A stretch of 11,825 nt of DNA. It comes from Actinomycetes bacterium (GTDB lineage: Bacteria; Actinomycetota; Actinomycetes; Actinomycetales; Cellulomonadaceae). The DNA is taken from the NCBI GenBank assembly GCA_023390875.1, contig JAEWCA010000255.1, forward strand, positions 1 through 11,825, in the 5' to 3' direction. A model generated the notes under the pieces. It searched no databases. It worked only from the letters and a program-made list of their open reading frames with translations, and was not told the DNA's origin. Positions 405-8,357 of the stretch are shown here, piece by piece; within the stretch, counting starts at the first letter, position 1, and each line of letters opens with the position of its first letter. Made by a program: the position numbers and the translations under genes.

Positions 405-422
405 GGTCCGACGGGCCTCAGG
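400..422. terminator. Bidirectional hairpin carrying both stop codons
   Basis: The arms CCTGAGG (400-406) and CCTCAGG (416-422) are perfect 7-bp inverted repeats around a 9-base loop. The TGA of the NlpC/P60 gene lies in the left arm and the TGA of the convergent HD gene (TCA on the plus strand) in the right arm. There is no T tract, so intrinsic termination is inferred from position and symmetry only. Confidence 0.5.
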
Positions 423-1419
423 CCTCGACGGACCGGGCCACCGCGAACCGCCGAGGGAGACCGTCGAGGACCCGGCGCTGCTCGTCCGAGAACCGCCACC
501 GTGTGCCGTCGACGACGGGCAGGTCGACATAGAGCCTCGCGACCTCGTGGACCAGCGTCGGCGGGTGGATCGCGTCGGCGGGGCCGGCGATCGGCTCGAC
601 GGTCCAGCGTTCCGGGTGCCTCATGAGCTCGCGGGTCGCGTCGGCGGTCGACGGGCTGCCGAGCAGGAGGGACCACAGCTCGTGGTCGGCGAAGGCCGCG
701 AGAGCCTCCGGCTCGGGGCCGCCCGCGGCCGACATCGCCGCCTCGGTCAGGTGCCGCAGCACGGCGACCGCCCGGACGTTCCAGCTCGCCGTCTGCCGCA
801 CCGCCTCGTCGACGACGAGACGGGCGAGGTCCGCGGCGGTCGCGGCGTCGCACACCACCGCTCCGTCGTGGACCCCGCAGCGTGCGAGCGTGTCGGCGGG
901 TGGCTCGCGGGTCCGGCCGTGCGCGTGCGCGCCGCGGACCAACGACTCGAGGTGGTCGAGCGTCAGCAGCCCGGCAGGGCCGCGCAGCATGGACGGCCGT
1001 CGCCCCGTCGCCACCGAGACGACGCCGCCGGCGTCGAGACCGAAGCGGTGCAGCACCGGGGCGAGCGAGCGGACGCCCTCCTCGGTCAGGCGGTGGTGGT
1101 CGGGCCCCGCGAGGCCCTCGAGGGTGTGGCTCAGGGGCGTGTGGCCGATGTCGTGCAGGAGCGCCCCGGCACGTGCCACGTGATCGTGCGGCGCCAGCCG
1201 GGCGACCAGGGCGAGCAGGCCGAGCGAGTGCTCGAGCCGGGAGTAGGTCTGCGTCGTCACGGCGGCGGCGGCGCCGGCGTGCGCGACACCGGCGAGCCGG
1301 CGGACGGGCCACGTCGTCAGGAGCTCGCGTTCGAGCGGCGACAGCTCCACCTCGGCGCGCCAGACGGGATCGACGTAGTGATCGGCGTCGCCGAGCACGT
1401 TCGCCCAGGGCCGGCTCAT
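418..1419 (-). CDS. HD-domain phosphohydrolase (dGTPase/SAMHD1-like superfamily)
   Basis: A 333-residue metal-dependent phosphohydrolase of the HD superfamily. The metal-binding set is visible in order: His64 (in RLEHSLG), His89-Asp90 (in LLHDIGHTPLSHTLEG) and a distal Asp155 (in LTLDHLESLVR). This is the H...HD...D pattern of HD enzymes that act on phosphomonoesters or nucleotides. The spacing and the LSHTLE segment recall the dGTPase/SAMHD1 branch, but the substrate cannot be read from sequence. The ATG at 1419 was chosen because the domain begins soon after it; its Shine-Dalgarno is weak. A strong GGAGGAGG just after the upstream gene's stop has no start codon at a usable distance. The gene lies 55 bp downstream of the glycosyltransferase on the same strand and is probably cotranscribed. 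In this setting it may dephosphorylate a sugar-phosphate intermediate; a housekeeping dNTPase is the alternative. Confidence 0.8.
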   Translation of the reverse strand: MSRPWANVLGDADHYVDPVWRAEVELSPLERELLTTWPVRRLAGVAHAGAAAAVTTQTYSRLEHSLGLLALVARLAPHDHVARAGALLHDIGHTPLSHTLEGLAGPDHHRLTEEGVRSLAPVLHRFGLDAGGVVSVATGRRPSMLRGPAGLLTLDHLESLVRGAHAHGRTREPPADTLARCGVHDGAVVCDAATAADLARLVVDEAVRQTASWNVRAVAVLRHLTEAAMSAAGGPEPEALAAFADHELWSLLLGSPSTADATRELMRHPERWTVEPIAGPADAIHPPTLVHEVARLYVDLPVVDGTRWRFSDEQRRVLDGLPRRFAVARSVEA

Positions 1420-1474
1420 GTCTGCGAGCCTGGTCCGTCGCGGTCCGCGGCCCCCCGGCGACCTCCTCCGGCTC

Positions 1475-2686
1475 TCATGCGCGTGCGGCCGCCGTGGTCG
1501 TCGACCGCCACAGATGGGGGACGGCCGCGTGCTCGCGGATCGTCGTGCGTGCGCCGTCGAGCGTGAATGTCTCGAGGTGACGACGCCACCGCTCCGCGGC
1601 GAGCGCGGCCCCCGGGTCGGCCTCGAGCTGGTCGACCGCGTCGCGCACCGTGGTGAAGGGTGTGTCGTGGCCGTGGCCCGCCTGCGCCGACCAGTCGACC
1701 TCCGCCGGCTCGCCGACGGCCGCGAACGAGCCGAACGCCCGAGCCTTGACCGCGTTGGCGGCGCGCTCCGGGCTGCCGTCCACGACGACGACCGTCGGCG
1801 TCCCGGCCTGCAGCATCGTGAGCACCACGCCGTGCCCTCCGTGCACCACGGCCGTCCGCGGCCCGGCCCCGGCGCCGGGACGGACGGCCCACAGGTCCCG
1901 GACGGCGAACCCGGCGAGGAGCGGCTCCGCGCGGAGAGCCGCCGCGGAGCGCTCGTCACCCGTCGCGACGTGCACCCGGTCGCGGACGTCCCCGAACGCG
2001 TCGACGAGCTCGTGCGCGCGCTCCACCTGGGTGAACGTCTTGTAGAAGAGGATCGCGTCGTCGGGCAGCGGGTGCCCGGCGTCCGCCCGGTCGACGCCCG
2101 TGAGGGGCCCCACGTACGTCGTGTAGCCGAGCGCCTCGGCGGGCACCGGGTCCGTCTCGGGGATCCCCGGGACGGCGACCGGGGACGCGACGATCACCTG
2201 CCGGAGGTCGGTGAGGTCGTCGACGGGCCCGTGGTCGGCGAGGGCACGCCGGAAGGCGGCGGCTCCCCGCGGCCACAACGCCTCCGTCGGGCGACCGGGG
2301 TAGGTGTGCCCGGGGAAGTCCATGTCCTGCACGAGCCCCACCACGGGCACGTCCTCGAGGTGTGCGGCCACGTTCATCGAGATCCGGCTGTCGACGACGA
2401 CCCGCGCGGCCCTCGTGCTGCGCAGGAGCGCGCGGTCCGCGGCGATCGCGGACCGGACGACCGTCTCGTCGGTCCACATCATCCACGGGTCGTGCTGCGA
2501 CCAGTCGCCCTCGTACGGGACGGCCCGCAGGCCTGCCGACTCGACGAACGCTCGCTGCCGCGCGTCCGGGACGGCGATCGCGACCGGGTCCCCGGCATCG
2601 CGGGCTGCCTGCGCGAGGACGACGCACCGCATCAGGTGGCCGTTGCCGTTCCCCCACGGGGTGAACAAGGTGATCTGTCCCGCCAT
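1475..2686 (-). CDS. GT-B fold glycosyltransferase (GT1/MurG-like)
   Basis: A 403-residue glycosyltransferase expected to move a sugar from a nucleotide-sugar donor to an acceptor in the cytoplasm. The N-terminal half opens with a glycine-rich acceptor-side loop (WGNGNGHLMRC, residues 11-21), as in GT-B proteins such as MurG, PseG and UGTs. The C-terminal donor-binding half has HGGHG (282-286), followed by a hydrophobic LQAGTPTVVV stretch, the usual nucleotide-sugar motif of GT1. No membrane segment is apparent. The ATG at 2686 has GAGAGG six bases upstream and places the first beta strand (QITLFTP) at the N terminus; an in-frame ATG at 2794 would add 36 residues unlike the family. It is the first gene leftward from the divergent control region and is followed by the HD gene. 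Donor and acceptor are unknown; the neighbouring aminotransferase suggests an aminosugar or aminocyclitol. Confidence 0.82.
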   Translation of the reverse strand: MAGQITLFTPWGNGNGHLMRCVVLAQAARDAGDPVAIAVPDARQRAFVESAGLRAVPYEGDWSQHDPWMMWTDETVVRSAIAADRALLRSTRAARVVVDSRISMNVAAHLEDVPVVGLVQDMDFPGHTYPGRPTEALWPRGAAAFRRALADHGPVDDLTDLRQVIVASPVAVPGIPETDPVPAEALGYTTYVGPLTGVDRADAGHPLPDDAILFYKTFTQVERAHELVDAFGDVRDRVHVATGDERSAAALRAEPLLAGFAVRDLWAVRPGAGAGPRTAVVHGGHGVVLTMLQAGTPTVVVVDGSPERAANAVKARAFGSFAAVGEPAEVDWSAQAGHGHDTPFTTVRDAVDQLEADPGAALAAERWRRHLETFTLDGARTTIREHAAVPHLWRSTTTAAARA

Positions 2687-2939
2687 GTGTGACCTCTCGA
2701 ACGTCAGCCCGACCCCCTGCGGCCCGGCGAAGCCCTCCCTGGTATCACGTTCCTGGAGTCGCCCGGGCGGGAACGAAACGTTTTTGCGATTCATCTGCAC
2801 GTCATCTCCCGATGATTGAAGCGAATTGCTCAGGATATGGACGGGATTCGCCAGGCCCGTCGCGCGGTGACTAGAACCGTGGCCCACATCCAAAGCGCGG
2901 GGCCGACGGTGCCCGTGCGTTTCCGCAGGGGGTGGAGAT
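2687..2939. promoter_or_regulatory. Divergent control region of the sugar cluster
   Basis: This 253-bp gap separates the leftward glycosyltransferase from the rightward dehydrogenase operon and must hold promoters for both. From 2776 to 2840, 36 of 65 bases are A or T, far above the surroundings. Within it are a perfect AAACGTTT palindrome (2776-2783), two TCATCT copies exactly 11 bp apart (2791 and 2802), a TCATC-TCCC-GATGA inverted repeat (2802-2815) and a TTGAAG hexamer (2816-2821). I could not pair a convincing -35 and -10 on either strand. Confidence 0.55.
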
Positions 2940-3983
2940 GTGGTGACAGTTCTGCGCGCCCACGAGGGCGTGGCGCACGGTCCGGGGTCCAGGACGCTGC
3001 CGCGCACGGTCGCGGTGGTCGGCGCGGCGGGCCATCAGGGCAAGGAGTACCTGGACGCCGTCGGCGAGATCGACGGGGTCTCGGTGGTGGGGGTCGTGGA
3101 CCCGGCCCGCGCAGCGGTGCCGACCGGCCACCGCCGGTTCGACAGCACCGCCCAGATGCTGGCGGAGGTCGTCCCCGACGTCGCGATCGTCGCGGTCCCG
3201 CACGCGCACCACGTCGACGTGACGCTCGAGCTGCTCGCCGCGGGCTGCCACGTGCTCAAGGAGAAGCCGCTCGCGACGACCGTGGCCGCGGCGAACGCGC
3301 TGGTCGACGCGGCGCGGCGCGCCGACCGCGGGATCGTCACGCTCACGCAGCGGCCGTACCAGCCGCTGTTCCACGAGCTTGCGCGGGCCGTCGGCGCGAT
3401 CGGCGACCCGTACTGGCTGGCCTACACGTACGCGATGTCCTTCGAGCGTCCCACGCAGGGCTGGCGGTCGGTCGCCGCGCTCGCGCACGGCGGGGTGCTC
3501 CTCGACATGGGATACCACGTGATCGACGTGCTGCAGCGGATGTTCGGGGACTCCGAGGTGCTCGCCGCCCGCCGCCACTACCGGTACGGGGCCAGCCGGC
3601 GGGAGCGGCTCGAGGACCTCGTCAGCGCGAAGCTCAGCATGCGCGACGGGTCCCTCACCGCCGACGTCACGATCGCCCGGCACGCCCACACCCGCGAGGA
3701 GTCGGTGGTCGTCCACGGGACCCACGGGGTCGCGACGGTCGACGTCCGCCGGGGCGAGCTGGTCGTGTACGACCGCTCAGGAAAAGTCATGTCGCAGTTT
3801 TCCGGTAAAGCGTCGAACGACCGGGCAGGTCGCGCCGAAATGCTGGCGCAGATGATGGGCTCGGTCGTCGACCCGGAACGGGCGGGCCGCGACATGGAAA
3901 TGCACGTCATGAACGTACGGACGTGCGACGCCGTCTATCAGGCGTGCCGGCACCGCCCGCGCGCCCGCACCTCGATCGTCTGA
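2940..3983 (+). CDS. Gfo/Idh/MocA family NAD(P)-dependent sugar/cyclitol dehydrogenase
   Basis: A 347-residue oxidoreductase that most likely oxidises a sugar or inositol hydroxyl to a ketone, giving the substrate for the aminotransferase encoded next. The Rossmann fold starts near residue 23 (TVAVVGAAGHQG). The family EKP motif follows in VLKEKPLA (108-110, Lys109 the usual active-site lysine). The second motif, GGVLLDMGYHVIDV (184-197), supplies the catalytic His193. Length is typical of the family. A GTG at 2940 is chosen, with AGGGGG about 7 bp upstream; the next codon is also GTG and could serve instead, and the ATG at 2938 is out of frame and stops at once. The first 20 residues precede the fold and may be over-called. 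It ends 9 bp before the aminotransferase gene. Relatives paired with a DegT aminotransferase include NtdC (glucose-6-phosphate 3-dehydrogenase). The substrate here is not determined. Confidence 0.88.
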   Translation: MVTVLRAHEGVAHGPGSRTLPRTVAVVGAAGHQGKEYLDAVGEIDGVSVVGVVDPARAAVPTGHRRFDSTAQMLAEVVPDVAIVAVPHAHHVDVTLELLAAGCHVLKEKPLATTVAAANALVDAARRADRGIVTLTQRPYQPLFHELARAVGAIGDPYWLAYTYAMSFERPTQGWRSVAALAHGGVLLDMGYHVIDVLQRMFGDSEVLAARRHYRYGASRRERLEDLVSAKLSMRDGSLTADVTIARHAHTREESVVVHGTHGVATVDVRRGELVVYDRSGKVMSQFSGKASNDRAGRAEMLAQMMGSVVDPERAGRDMEMHVMNVRTCDAVYQACRHRPRARTSIV

Positions 3984-3992
3984 AGGAGAACC

Positions 3993-5330
3993 GTGGAGCC
4001 GAAGCTCGCCCTGCTCGGTGGGGAGCCCGCCGTCACCGCCGCCCATCCGCACGAGCCCTGGCCGCCGCCGGCGGCCCAGGAGGAGCTGGACCGGCTGGCG
4101 CGCCAGCGCGTGGACGACATCAACATCCGCGGTAACGCGGGACCGATCGGGGAGCTCGAGGAGGCCTTCCGCGAGGAGCTCGCCCCGGAGAGCCGGTACG
4201 CCGTCGCGTTCAACTCCGGCACCTCGGCGCTCCTCGCCGCGTACGTCGGTGTCGGCGTCGGGCCCGGGGACGAGGTCGTCGGTCCCGAGCTCACGTACCA
4301 CGCGGCGCTCAGTCCGGCCTTCGTGCTCGGTGCGCGCGTGCGGACCGCCGACATCGAGCGCGGCAGCCGGTGCCTCGACCCCGCCTCCGTCGAGGCCGCC
4401 GTCACCGAGCGGACGCGAGCGGTGGTGGTGGTCCACCAGTGGGGGCACCCCGCCGACGTCGACGGGCTCCTGCGCGTCTGCGACAAGTACGACCTGCCCC
4501 TGATCGAGGACTGCTCGCACGCCCACGGCACCACGTACAAGGGCCGCGCCGTGGGGACGTTCGGGACCGCCGGTGCGTTCTCGCTGCAGACCAACAAGGC
4601 GGTGTTCGCCGGCGAGGGCGGCATCCTCGTCACGAGCGACCCGCTCGTGAAGGACCGGGCGATCCTGCTCGGGCACTACCGCGACCGCGCGAAGAGCGAC
4701 GTCGAGGACGAGTCGCTGCGCCGGCACTGGGTGTCGGGCTTCGGCCTCAAGCTGCGGATGTCGCCGTTCAACGCCGTCGTCGCCCTCGCGTCGCTGCGTG
4801 CGTTCCCCGCTCTGCGTGACGAGCGCGCCCGGTGCCTGACGTACTTCCGCTCCCGGCTCGCCGAGATCCCGTACCTCGAGCACGTCTCGGTCCCGAGCGG
4901 CGACAGCATGGGCGCGTGGTACGGCTTCAAGCCGCTCTACCTGCCCGAGGAGCTGGGCGTCTCGCGCGCGACCCTCGTCCGTGCCCTGCAGGCGGAGGGC
5001 GTCGAGGTGGACGCACCCTCGGCTCCGCCGTTGTCGACCCTCCCGCTGTACGACGACCCCGTCGCCCTGTACGGAGGGCGGGCCCCGAGCGGGCGGCTCG
5101 CACCCGTCGAGCACCCCGTCGCCGCGCACGTCGGTGCGCACGCCCTGTCGTTGCCGACCTTCTACCGGTGGGACAGCGACCGTGAGGTGATCGACCAGTA
5201 CGTCGCCGCGTTCTCGAAGGTGTACGAGCACCGTCACGCGCTGGTCGAGTGGGAGCGGTCGGCGGTCGGCGTGCAGCCGGGTGCGGCGCCCGCGGCGCTC
5301 CCGCGCGACGCGGTGGGCGCGGGCCGGTGA
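3993..5330 (+). CDS. DegT/DnrJ/EryC1/StrS-family PLP aminotransferase
   Basis: A 445-residue PLP-dependent sugar or cyclitol aminotransferase that would convert a keto group into an amine, usually with glutamate or glutamine as donor. Visible landmarks are NSGTSAL (74-80, phosphate-binding), IEDCSHAHG (171-179, Asp173 contacting the pyridine nitrogen), and FSLQTNKAVFAGEGG (196-210), where Lys202 should form the Schiff base. The opening LALLGGEPAV is common in the branch that includes AHBA-synthase-like and cyclitol aminotransferases. It starts at a GTG preceded by AAGGAG (spacing 4). It follows the dehydrogenase by 9 bp, and its TGA overlaps the GTG of the next gene, so translation is probably coupled. 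The last 25 or so residues are Ala/Pro/Gly-rich and look like a non-conserved tail. The family is clear; whether the product is a 3-amino sugar, a scyllo-inosamine type or another compound is not. Confidence 0.9.
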   Translation: MEPKLALLGGEPAVTAAHPHEPWPPPAAQEELDRLARQRVDDINIRGNAGPIGELEEAFREELAPESRYAVAFNSGTSALLAAYVGVGVGPGDEVVGPELTYHAALSPAFVLGARVRTADIERGSRCLDPASVEAAVTERTRAVVVVHQWGHPADVDGLLRVCDKYDLPLIEDCSHAHGTTYKGRAVGTFGTAGAFSLQTNKAVFAGEGGILVTSDPLVKDRAILLGHYRDRAKSDVEDESLRRHWVSGFGLKLRMSPFNAVVALASLRAFPALRDERARCLTYFRSRLAEIPYLEHVSVPSGDSMGAWYGFKPLYLPEELGVSRATLVRALQAEGVEVDAPSAPPLSTLPLYDDPVALYGGRAPSGRLAPVEHPVAAHVGAHALSLPTFYRWDSDREVIDQYVAAFSKVYEHRHALVEWERSAVGVQPGAAPAALPRDAVGAGR

Positions 5331-6619
5331 CGCGCGTGCGACCCGGCGTCGTCCCGTCGCCCGCGCCCGGTCCGCGGACCGGTGTCTCGGTGGTGGTCCC
5401 CACCTTCGAGCGTGCAGACGAGCTGGAGGCGACCCTGCGATCGCTCGAGGCCCAGCGCGGTGCGGCGGGCCCGGGGTTGCAGGTGGTCGTCGTCGACGAC
5501 GGGTCGCACGCCGACCTCCTGCCTGTCATCCGCCGCCACGAGCGGACGCTCGACCTCCTGCTCGTGCGGCAGCCGGACCGCGGGTTGCGGGCGGCGGCCG
5601 CCCGGAACCTGGGGGCGCGCGTCGCGACCGGTGACGTCCTGGTCTTCCTCGACTGCGGGACCCTCGCCGGGCAGGATCTCGTCGAGGCCCACCGCCGCGC
5701 ACACGAACGCGCAGGCGGGGCCGTGGTGGCGACCTTCGCACCGACCTACGGGTACGACGTCACCGGCCCCGACAAGCGGCGGCTGCGGGACGTCCTGCTG
5801 TCCGCCCCGGGAGCCATCGACCTGGCGCCGCTCGCCGGTGTGCCGGGCATGGACGACTACCGGACCCAGAAGCTGCTCGACGTGCAGCTCGACGGCACCC
5901 GCCTCGCGGTGCCGTGGCGGTTCTTCTGGAGCCGCAACGTCTCGGTCCATGCCGACGCGTTCGCGGCCGTCGGCGGCTTCGACGACTCCTACGACTCGTA
6001 CGGCGTCGAGGACATCGAGCTCGGGTACCGGCTGTACCGGCACGGCGTCCCGCTGGTGTGGGTGCCGGAGGCGTGGGGCGCGGAGGTCCCGACGTTCGAG
6101 GGCGAGGAGGAGGCGCTCGGGCGGTCGAACCGCACGAACCTGCTCGCCCTCGCCGACCGGTACGCGGACGTCGAGGTCGAGTTCTACGTCGTGAACCGGC
6201 CGCTGGAGCGCCTCGAGCAGCAGGAGTTCGACCTGATCGACCGTTGGCGCGGCGAGGCCGGCACGACCCCGGCAGACCGGGACGTCGTGGCGCGCGCGGC
6301 CGCCGCGGGTTCGGTGCTCGTGGTCGGCGCCGACGACCGCGTCCCCGACCTGCCGGGCGTCGTCCGCGTCGGACCGTCGTTCGCCTCGGCGGAGGGGGCG
6401 TGGGCGCGCGCGCTGGCGACGGGTCGCGGGGACGTCTCCGGCCTGGGCATCCGCCTCGGGCTCCCGTCCGACTCGTTCGACGTGGTCGTCCTCACGAGCG
6501 CACTGGCGGGGATCTGGTCGCGCTGGGGCGAGTGGATCCTCGCCGAGGCCCGGCGGGTCGGCCGCGCCGTCGAGCTCGGGGCAGGGGTGGAGCCGGCGCT
6601 CACACGGACGTCGTCGTAG
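5327..6619 (+). CDS. Family-2 (GT-A) glycosyltransferase with galactosyltransferase-type C-terminal motif and extra C-terminal region
   Basis: A 430-residue glycosyltransferase. The GT2 fold begins at about residue 19 (GVSVVVPTFERADEL), with the nucleotide-binding VVVVDDGS (53-60). The usual metal-binding DxD position reads LDCG (Asp109-Cys110-Gly111), so the second acidic residue is missing. The segment VGGFDDSYDSYGVEDIELGYRL (215-236) matches the Glyco_transf_7C type, with Glu228-Asp229 as the likely base and acceptor-binding pair. About 150 further residues follow; residues 371-415 (LPSDSFDVVVLTSAL then ILAEARRVGR) vaguely recall the second half of a class I methyltransferase, without a complete SAM-binding motif. 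The GTG start overlaps the aminotransferase stop by 4 bp (GTGA), indicating coupling; a GTG three codons later is possible. The 3' end overlaps the convergent MFS gene by 20 bp. The transferred sugar is unknown. Confidence 0.82.
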   Translation: MTRVRPGVVPSPAPGPRTGVSVVVPTFERADELEATLRSLEAQRGAAGPGLQVVVVDDGSHADLLPVIRRHERTLDLLLVRQPDRGLRAAAARNLGARVATGDVLVFLDCGTLAGQDLVEAHRRAHERAGGAVVATFAPTYGYDVTGPDKRRLRDVLLSAPGAIDLAPLAGVPGMDDYRTQKLLDVQLDGTRLAVPWRFFWSRNVSVHADAFAAVGGFDDSYDSYGVEDIELGYRLYRHGVPLVWVPEAWGAEVPTFEGEEEALGRSNRTNLLALADRYADVEVEFYVVNRPLERLEQQEFDLIDRWRGEAGTTPADRDVVARAAAAGSVLVVGADDRVPDLPGVVRVGPSFASAEGAWARALATGRGDVSGLGIRLGLPSDSFDVVVLTSALAGIWSRWGEWILAEARRVGRAVELGAGVEPALTRTSS

Positions 6620-7811
6620 GTCGGGTGCGGGCCGGCTCGGCGGGTGCCAGCGAGGACCTGGCGCTGACCAGAAGAACACCGGCGACGGCGCACAGCCCGG
6701 CGCCGATGAAGAAGATGGGACGCGAATATCCCGGGACCGCGAGCGGAAGAAGGACACCGACCGCGGTGCCCGTCTGCATCACCGCGGTGAATGCATTCGC
6801 ACCCGCGCCGTTGCCGCCGCGCAGCTGCTTTCCGAGAACGACCAGACCGATGCTCTGGAAACCCGCGGCAAATGCCGCGTACACCACCTGGGCGAGGGTC
6901 AGCGTGACCATTCCCCCCGCCGTCGTCACCAAGAGGAACGCCCCGGCGCCGGCGGCGCAGCACGCCATCAGCACGGGCACGGGCCCTCGCCGGCGGGTCG
7001 CGAGCACCAGCCAGGAGAGCAGCGGGATCTCGAGCAGCGCGGTCACCAGGAAGAGCCACGCGATCTGCGACTGCGCGACCGACTGCGCGTCGGCGTAGAG
7101 CGGCAGGTAGACGGCCCTCAGCTGGTCCGCGCCCCGCATGAGCGCGATCGAGACCAGGCAGGCGGCGACGACCACGCGCGCGCGGACCGGACTCGTGCCG
7201 GTGCCGGCCCGGGGCGCGACGGCGACGTGCCTCGCGAGCGCCCCGCGGGGAAGTGCCAGGGGGACGGCGGCCGCGCCGGCAGCGAGCCCGACGGCCACGA
7301 CGATCGCCTGACCCCCGAGCGCCGTGACGCCGGAGTGGAGCGCGAGGCCCGCGATGAAGCCGACCACGATCGCGCGGCGCATGCGCGCGATCACCGTCGG
7401 GTCGTCGACGCCCTCGGCCTCCTGGCCGGAGGCGATCCCGATGGCCATGGGCACGATCGTCGAGACGAACATCATGAGGACGCCGGCCGGGTAGAGGACG
7501 GGCGTACCGCCCCAGACGCTCACGAGCAGGAGCCCGGCGGGGAACGCCACCGACGCTCCGAGCAGCCCCCACCGGGGGTAGCCGTGCCGCTGGAGCCGCG
7601 GCAGGAGCAGCGTGCTGTACAGCACAGCCAGCGCGGCGTTCGCGAGGAAGAACGCCGCGATCGTCGTCTTGCTCGCGCCCAGCGCGGAAAGCCGCAGCGG
7701 CAGCGCGACCGCCATGATTCCGCCGGCGGTGGTGTTGCACAGGACGATCACCGTCAGGATGCGCTGCAGTCGGTTCTCGCGATTTCCCGACGGTGCCCGG
7801 AAATGCCGCAC
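6600..7811 (-). CDS. MFS transporter, Set-type sugar efflux pump-like
   Basis: A 403-residue polytopic membrane protein with about 12 hydrophobic segments and a charged central loop near residues 188-211, as in the major facilitator superfamily. Its second half (RGADQLRAVYLPLYA, 226-240; LLEIPLL, 259-265; LTLAQVVYAAFAAGFQSIG, 304-322; GNGAGANAFTAVMQTG, 333-348) follows the pattern I recall for E. coli SetA. Set pumps expel lactose, glucosides and some aminoglycosides. I infer export of the cluster's glycoside product; a drug or sugar exporter unrelated to the cluster is the alternative. The GTG at 7811 has a strong GGAGAAGGGGG upstream (spacing about 6). The frame stays open far upstream, but that part is antisense to other genes. 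The gene is convergent with, and overlaps, the GT2 gene by 20 bp, and diverges from the Nudix gene across 51 bp. Confidence 0.82.
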   Translation of the reverse strand: MRHFRAPSGNRENRLQRILTVIVLCNTTAGGIMAVALPLRLSALGASKTTIAAFFLANAALAVLYSTLLLPRLQRHGYPRWGLLGASVAFPAGLLLVSVWGGTPVLYPAGVLMMFVSTIVPMAIGIASGQEAEGVDDPTVIARMRRAIVVGFIAGLALHSGVTALGGQAIVVAVGLAAGAAAVPLALPRGALARHVAVAPRAGTGTSPVRARVVVAACLVSIALMRGADQLRAVYLPLYADAQSVAQSQIAWLFLVTALLEIPLLSWLVLATRRRGPVPVLMACCAAGAGAFLLVTTAGGMVTLTLAQVVYAAFAAGFQSIGLVVLGKQLRGGNGAGANAFTAVMQTGTAVGVLLPLAVPGYSRPIFFIGAGLCAVAGVLLVSARSSLAPAEPARTRPTTTSV

Positions 7812-7846
7812 GGTTGGCCCCCTTCTCCGTACCCGGTGCGGCACCG

Positions 7847-7852
7847 TAGCAT
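7847..7852 (+). promoter_or_regulatory. Possible -10 element (TAGCAT) for the Nudix gene
   Basis: TAGCAT ends 10 bases before the first ATG of the Nudix gene, with a loose TTCTCC 18 bases upstream as a possible -35. The Nudix start has no visible Shine-Dalgarno, so a very short leader or leaderless mRNA is likely. The element is weak and predicted by eye. Confidence 0.25.
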
Positions 7853-7862
7853 TTCGTGCACA

Positions 7863-8357
7863 ATGTCCGACATGATGTCTCAGGAACGCGACGGCTCGGC
7901 TGCACCTCCTTCCGGCGCGCTCGTCGGGGCGCTCATCGTCGACGGCGACGGGCGCGTCATGGTGCAGCGGCGGAGCCGGTCGCGCCGGCTGTTCCCCGGC
8001 GCGTGGGACGTGGTCGGCGGCGCGGTGGAGCCCGGCGAGGACGAGCTCGCGGCGTTGCACCGCGAGGTGCGCGAGGAGACCGGCTGGGAGGTGCAGGAGG
8101 TCGTCGCGTGGGTCGCGGACCTCGACGTGGACCTCGACGGCACGCCGGCCCGCGAGCGGGTCGCGCTCGTCCGGGCGGACGGACCCGGCTATCCGGTCCC
8201 GACCCTCGAGGAGGGCAAGCACGACGCGTGGGCGTGGGTCGACACCGAGAGCCCCGAGCTCACCGAGAACCGTCGGCTCGGGTTCGGCGACCACCTGCAC
8301 GACGTCGTCGTCGCGGGCCTGCGGTGGTCGGCGGAGCGCGATCCCGCCGACCGGTAG
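7863..8357 (+). CDS. Nudix hydrolase (MutT/isopentenyl-isomerase-like NUDIX domain)
   Basis: A 164-residue Nudix enzyme, which hydrolyses a nucleoside diphosphate linked to another moiety. The complete Nudix box runs from Gly53 to Trp75 and fits Gx5Ex7REUxEExGU exactly (VEPGE...REVREETGW). The metal-binding glutamates are intact, so it should be active. The segment VMVQRRSRSRRLFPGAWDVVGGAVE (33-57) is typical of the broad NUDIX group that includes Idi-like and YfcD-like proteins. Substrate is not predictable: oxidised nucleotides, NDP-sugars and others are all possible. The first ATG (7863) is used; ATGs follow at 7872 and 7875, and none has a clear ribosome-binding site. The gene diverges from the MFS gene and converges on the pyrophosphatase gene, with a terminator-like hairpin between. 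It may be a neighbour of the sugar cluster rather than a member. Confidence 0.88.
   Translation: MSDMMSQERDGSAAPPSGALVGALIVDGDGRVMVQRRSRSRRLFPGAWDVVGGAVEPGEDELAALHREVREETGWEVQEVVAWVADLDVDLDGTPARERVALVRADGPGYPVPTLEEGKHDAWAWVDTESPELTENRRLGFGDHLHDVVVAGLRWSAERDPADR

Follow-up and report, generated by a model that had tools for sequence, protein, structure and literature searches.

Puromycin, A201A and 3'-amino-3'-deoxyguanosine are aminonucleosides, compounds that block translation or the synthesis of RNA, and A201A is itself glycosylated. The Pur/Ata dehydrogenase and aminotransferase pair is described as acting on the ribose of ATP (PMC11641026) or of GTP (PMC9239236). The adg set consists of a gene of the major facilitator superfamily (MFS) and homologs of pur10, pur4, pur7 and pur3, and in E. 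coli the product of the four enzymes was 3'-amino-3'-deoxyguanosine (PMC9239236), so that a set as small as the one described here can suffice for the core. For nucleocidin a nucleoside 3'-O-glucosyltransferase is known (PMC7017864), and nucleoside glycosylation within a biosynthetic cluster therefore has precedent. Here we describe a related gene set in an 11,825-nucleotide stretch of DNA (the window; positions 1 to 11,825 of contig JAEWCA010000255.1, assembly GCA_023390875.1) from an actinomycete of the Cellulomonadaceae. With a probability of roughly three in four, seven of its genes (418-8357) form a cluster that makes and exports a glycosylated 3'-amino-3'-deoxynucleoside, a sugar-decorated relative of the puromycin core.

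The case is carried by a DegT/StrS aminotransferase (DegT) and a Gfo/Idh/MocA dehydrogenase (Gfo), which by kinship correspond to the Pur4/AtaP4 and Pur10/AtaP10 pair of puromycin and A201A. Over 94% of its length the window DegT shares 60% identity with the A201A protein AtaP4 (P0151, identified through its database name), at 519 bits (59.5% over 425 columns); for scale, the DegTs of two other loci, L012 and L011, are 56.7 and 73.0% identical to AtaP4. In a 37-row tree (the window, four loci, four outgroups and 28 of the 120 proteins listed), built by a short search with support from the Shimodaira-Hasegawa-like approximate likelihood ratio test (SH-aLRT) only and with long outgroup branches, it falls in a seven-row clade (99 SH-aLRT) with P0132, P0136, P0206, P0209, P0196 and the L001 protein; the five apart from P0196 are DegTs linked to a relative of the window GT-B glycosyltransferase. 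A 33-row group (99 SH-aLRT) takes in this clade, AtaP4, the Marinactinospora sequence and both puromycin-type loci. For Gfo, the cluster protein is the top whole-genome match in all four genomes with the pair (168-240 bits, with runners-up at 31-47). DegT matches at E<=1e-90 occur in 4 of 394 genomes sampled from the class (G001, which is Microbacterium sp. H83, G953, G980 and G1079) and in one of 396 sampled from the order, again G001; a few candidates at most were scored per genome in all such samples, and misses are possible. Pur4-type DegTs 52-55% identical to that of the window are also present in Coprococcus, Paceibacterota and Acidobacteriota (P0242, P0222, P0155) on the AtaP4/Pur4 branch, and from this placement aminonucleoside chemistry may extend beyond Actinomycetota. 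A distant DegT match (36.8% identical) lies on a 417-kb Natronosalvus plasmid record in PLSDB (NZ_CP101160.1:343553-344818).

The loci around the pair were L001 (in G001), L010 (G953), L011 (G980) and L012 (G1079), read with a home-made gene caller that misses or misframes some genes and served as a pointer to open reading frames (ORFs) only. L012 runs M28 peptidase, NUDIX, Gfo, DegT, methyltransferase, IMPase and GNAT, the last related to puromycin N-acetyltransferase (E 3.5e-47), and L011 runs M28, NUDIX, Gfo, a 753-aa ORF with no Pfam match, DegT, an IMPase match, GNAT, O-methyltransferase and MFS; both are, by gene content, puromycin-like loci. In L010 the NUDIX, Gfo and DegT genes are joined by one for a Pur5-like methyltransferase, 59.6% identical to the L012 enzyme, and genes for GDP-mannose 4,6-dehydratase and acyltransferase lie nearby. 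Across the columns retained, the L010 DegT does not differ from that of Marinactinospora thermotolerans, an A201A producer according to a title in the reference list of PMC11641026. On one side, the puromycin-type locus is flanked by three DDE transposase genes (L012:13778-19797).

A NUDIX gene accompanies the pair in five of five loci (the window, L001, L010, L011 and L012), adjoining Gfo in L010, L011 and L012 and GT-B in L001, and lying beyond the MFS gene in the window. The cluster copy is the top whole-genome match of the window NUDIX in three of four genomes. By this presence in relatives, and by its base composition (below), the NUDIX gene is probably a member of the set, with a kinship to Pur7 that the sequences resolve weakly. 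It also matches the PADLOC model PDC-S07 (42.4 bits). No PADLOC match was obtained for the HD, GT-B or MFS proteins, and an anti-phage role was set aside.

The HD protein has the fold of the deoxynucleoside triphosphate (dNTP) triphosphohydrolase SAMHD1 and carries RxEHS and HDxGH motifs, which we take to be the SAMHD1 hallmark. It is 14-18% identical to SAMHD1 and to an Enterococcus faecalis HD protein of dNTPase type (EF1143), and is shorter than these chains (333 residues, compared with roughly 430-480). Its relative in L001 (P0126, L001:5597-7438, Microbacterium sp. H83) is fused to a formyltransferase, whose top PDB matches by score are a sugar 3-N-formyltransferase (45.2 bits) and, level with it, PurN (45.1). 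HD domains fused to N-acyl-transfer domains (formyltransferase or GNAT) are seen in P0126, P0054, P0049 and P0121. A parallel with cordycepin, through Cns2 as an HD protein, was dropped: the text consulted calls Cns2 a phosphohydrolase and elsewhere a SAICAR synthase, with no HD wording there.

For the GT-B protein Pfam gives no match, and its one NCBIfam score lies far under the cut-off (22.9 against 195.9 bits). Its structural model (predicted local distance difference test score 84.4) has as top Foldseek matches the kitacinnamycin, elaiophylin, UrdGT2, CalG and OleD glycosyltransferases (E 1e-14 to 1e-12, template modeling scores of about 0.6-0.7). Relatives are rare: of 7997 candidates scored, four proteins reached E<=1e-10, the species genome collection contained a single locus, and viral contigs had none; at E<=1e-15 they occur in 2 of 398 genomes from the family (G001, and a distant protein of L006 in G117) and in 1 of 396 from the phylum (G001). 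Neither GT-B nor HD has a PLSDB match, and plasmid carriage was discarded. For each of the four GT-B relatives a Pur4-type DegT is listed with a longest contig of equal size, taken as the same contig (9552, 9540, 6826 and 4043325 bases, the last from Cellulomonas sp. JZ18), and co-occurrence of the two genes is therefore likely.

The second glycosyltransferase, of family GT2, has chondroitin synthase as its best PDB match (E 4.4e-23, residues 19-269), and its only strong relative in the five genomes examined is in L006 of G117 (339 bits, the others 30 or none). Its C-terminal extension (window 6190-6619, about 150 aa) has no Pfam match and looks like a degenerate Rossmann or methyltransferase-like domain; it is also present in L006. 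G117 belongs to the same family as Microbacterium sp. H83, and at L006:8952-14773 it carries together relatives of the window GT-B (31.7%), GT2 (44.1%) and, just after GT2, MFS (39.5% over 380 aa), along with a class-V pyridoxal phosphate (PLP) enzyme resembling cysteine desulfurase and a short protein, unmatched in Pfam and NCBIfam, whose HxHxH stretch reads as HIT-like. Nothing matching the DegT, Gfo, NUDIX or HD of the window was found in L006, which as judged from its genes is a second, different cluster with a related glycosyltransferase and export module. GT-B, GT2 and MFS may thus be a movable trio; the decorating genes differ from cluster to cluster and are not specific to aminonucleosides. 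Where GT2 and MFS are not found, L001 carries a 373-aa protein with no Pfam match, possibly a GT-A enzyme.

An earlier note, drawn from the sequence alone, had recognized six of these genes (418-7811) as a compact set for the biosynthesis and export of an amino-sugar or aminocyclitol glycoside. All six are present as intact, open frames (six-frame ORFs, Pfam and NCBIfam; the GT-B by its modeled fold), and the view of a compact biosynthesis-and-export set built on the dehydrogenase and DegT pair, probably glycosylating, holds up. The right end probably does not: the proportion of G+C at third codon positions (GC3) is 0.911-0.948 in the HD, GT-B, Gfo, DegT, GT2, MFS and NUDIX genes (0.939 in NUDIX) and 0.970-0.993 in four flanking genes, which in this small sample hints at a separately acquired block ending after NUDIX at 8357 rather than at 7811. 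The note's description of the MFS protein as Set-like found no backing, with a Pfam score under the cut-off of 33.4 bits, no NCBIfam model and no PDB sequence match. Co-occurrence in relatives, which it named as a check, is likely for GT-B and DegT, as far as equal contig sizes tell. Spacing is tight, with 55 bp between HD and GT-B and 9 bp between Gfo and DegT, a 4-bp overlap of DegT with GT2 and a convergent 20-bp overlap of GT2 with MFS. Motifs which we take to be catalytic in meaning are EKP in Gfo, TNKAVFAGEGG in DegT, RLEHSLG and HDIGHTPLSH in HD, HGGHG in GT-B and DDGS in GT2. To the left the set is flanked by an NlpC/P60 gene that the window edge truncates, and to the right by genes for PPase, PBP4 and a DUF2342 protein.

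Genes of the proposed cluster, with positions in the window and predicted roles
Feature	Position	Strand	Remarks
HD-domain phosphohydrolase	418..1419	-	333 aa; SAMHD1-type fold; proposed Pur3 substitute acting on a 3'-amino nucleotide
GT-B glycosyltransferase	1475..2686	-	403 aa; GT1-like fold of the natural-product glycosyltransferase kind
Divergent intergenic region, 256 bp	2687..2942	none	Presumed promoters for both arms (computed gap)
Gfo/Idh/MocA dehydrogenase, Pur10/AtaP10-like	2943..3983	+	PF01408, 72.7 bits; would use NAD to oxidize the ribose 3'-OH of a purine nucleoside triphosphate (NTP)
DegT/StrS aminotransferase, Pur4/AtaP4 type	3993..5330	+	PF01041, 237 bits; proposed conversion of 3'-keto to 3'-amino
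GT2 glycosyltransferase, C-terminal extension of ~150 aa	5327..6619	+	PF00535, 63.9 bits
MFS transporter, proposed exporter	6600..7811 (start 7811 or 7751)	-	PF07690, 29.2 bits, below cut-off
NUDIX hydrolase, candidate Pur7/AtaP7 counterpart	7863..8357	+	PF00293, 69.5 bits; proposed conversion of 3'-amino-NTP to the monophosphate and PPi

Could the phosphate-removing enzymes be mere neighbors? HD, NUDIX or both might lie here by accident, the pathway consisting of Gfo, DegT, GT-B, GT2 and MFS with host phosphatases removing the phosphate. HD was indeed not found in G953, G980, G1079 or G117, and the NUDIX phylogeny is weak. We nonetheless consider this unlikely, as an HD domain sits, fused, inside L001, HD proteins occur on contigs equal in size to those of two GT-B relatives (9552 and 9540 bases), and both genes group with the cluster in GC3. 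HD is moreover rare: a class sample of 246 genomes and a genus sample of 139 each contain it once, in G001, and these samples give no sign of a widespread HD protein.

Pairs of Gfo and DegT enzymes also make kanosamine, UDP-GlcNAc3N and scyllo-inosamine, and the product could in principle be a kanosamine-like amino-sugar or aminocyclitol glycoside, formed from a free sugar phosphate or inositol, glycosylated and exported, as the earlier note proposed. The two glycosyltransferases would suit this, and Gfo does match the NCBIfam models for UDP-GlcNAc 3-dehydrogenase and inositol dehydrogenase. These scores, however, are far under the cut-offs (68.5 against 450 and 56.8 against 355), and the puromycin-type Gfo of L012 scores higher on both (81 and 70.2). 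In the PDB, the window DegT reaches 165.6 bits with its best chain, 158.4 with ArnB, 119-130 with 2-deoxy-scyllo-inosose aminotransferases and 74.7 with NtdA, compared with the 519 bits for AtaP4; nor did the Pfam and NCBIfam scan of the window proteins reveal a cyclitol-forming synthase or a nucleoside diphosphate sugar gene. An amino-sugar or aminocyclitol product is therefore improbable; on the score gaps of DegT and Gfo we rejected the kanosamine, aminocyclitol and sugar-nucleotide pathways, and the matches to the A201A and puromycin pair supply named relatives where the earlier note had seen no match to a named cluster. Sugar N-formylation is common in surface glycans, and the formyltransferase domain of L001 and the resemblance of GT2 to polysaccharide glycosyltransferases (chondroitin synthase and EpsD) would fit an aminonucleotide-derived or amino-sugar precursor built by the glycosyltransferases into a larger surface glycan rather than an antibiotic, but this is very improbable given an MFS pump, a GT-B fold that matches natural-product enzymes, and a scan of 11 window proteins and 10 L001 ORFs (the one close relative read) with no lipid-carrier transferase, flippase, polymerase or other sign of the cell-wall glycan locus that the earlier note had named as the outcome that would contradict it.

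Several observations weigh against a glycosylated aminonucleoside. The DegT clade of the window stands apart from the 96-supported branch that holds AtaP4 and both puromycin-type loci, in a tree limited by its short search and long outgroup branches. A different NUDIX outscores the cluster copy in G1079 (93.8 against 71 bits), and the NUDIX tree mixes the window protein with cluster and non-cluster genes at 81/84, leaving the Microbacterium cluster copy unplaced. Among the matches listed, at least 120 HD relatives and at least 120 DegTs have three contig sizes in common, one of them the window; since most of these HD relatives share no contig size with a DegT, the HD protein is not peculiar to clusters of this kind. 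With the L012 IMPase as query, L011 is matched (48.7%), whereas at E<=1 the window, L001, L006 and L010 give nothing, so that a Pur3-type IMPase is not seen in the window; nor does the window match a Pur5-type methyltransferase. These absences are only partly telling because the queries also miss the IMPase in the 20-kb L010 and Pur5 in L011. Finally, no GT2 match was found in G001 and no GT2 or MFS match across the 21 kb of L001, where GT-B is present, and the GT-B, GT2 and MFS trio also stands beside another core in L006.

The route that we propose for the glycosylated aminonucleoside is modeled on pur, ata and adg (PMC11641026, PMC9239236). Gfo would oxidize the ribose 3'-OH of a purine nucleoside triphosphate to the 3'-ketone, which DegT would convert to the 3'-amine. 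NUDIX, the SAMHD1-like HD or both would then remove the phosphates to yield the nucleoside, HD replacing Pur3 and possibly also destroying the toxic 3'-amino-NTP. The GT1-like GT-B and GT2 would attach one or two sugars, and MFS would export the glycoside. As no Pur5 match was found, there is no need to assume dimethyladenine as the base. What the DNA itself shows is gene content, motifs and Pur4/Pur10 kinship; we infer every reaction, the base (from ATP or GTP), the sugars, the role of HD, the bioactivity and the function of glycosylation as a cap.

A bolder extension, which we regard as doubtful but worth stating, is that GT-B, GT2 and MFS are a movable “cap and export” module that decorates different small cores in Actinomycetota, here a 3'-aminonucleoside. 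In the Microbacterium relative the amine would be N-formylated, the SAMHD1-type enzyme would provide both the last dephosphorylation and self-protection by destroying a chain-terminating 3'-amino-NTP, and the exported glycoside would be a prodrug, active only after deglycosylation in the target cell. If the proposed cluster is real, a glycosylated branch in which a SAMHD1-like enzyme replaces the usual phosphatase would widen the small aminonucleoside family and suggest a new route of self-protection, and at about 8 kb the cluster would be easy to express and test.

How does the window compare with the described systems? Likened by gene content alone, the adg set of Photorhabdus luminescens is similarly compact, with MFS and pur10-, pur4- and pur7-type genes, but has a pur3 homolog and, in the part of the text available, no glycosyltransferases (PMC9239236), whereas the window has HD and two glycosyltransferases. 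The A201A system shares NUDIX, Gfo and a 59-60% identical DegT; unlike the window, the Marinactinospora-type L010 has the Pur5-like methyltransferase, GDP-mannose 4,6-dehydratase, acyltransferase and GT4/RGP genes, and the window GT-B and GT2 have no match in it. The puromycin loci L011 and L012 share genes in the Pur10, Pur4 and Pur7 positions but differ in their IMPase, GNAT and M28 peptidase, none of which is matched in the window (Pfam scan of its proteins and the IMPase query), which has glycosyltransferases and HD instead. NucGT of nucleocidin is also a nucleoside-glycosylating enzyme in a nucleoside antibiotic cluster (PMC7017864), an analogy of function only; no glucosidase is found among the window proteins scanned. 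The L006 trio, by contrast, accompanies a class-V PLP enzyme and a HIT-like protein as its core. PMC11641026 makes no mention of glycosyltransferases, HD domains, formyltransferases, Cellulomonas or Microbacterium, and among the open-licence papers listed (for instance 20 of 108 and 8 of 229) no title or opening of an abstract concerned such a cluster. The core enzymes of the window are already known from puromycin and A201A, and what appears to be new to aminonucleosides is the replacement of the phosphatase by HD, the fusion to a formyltransferase, and the GT1/GT2/MFS module.

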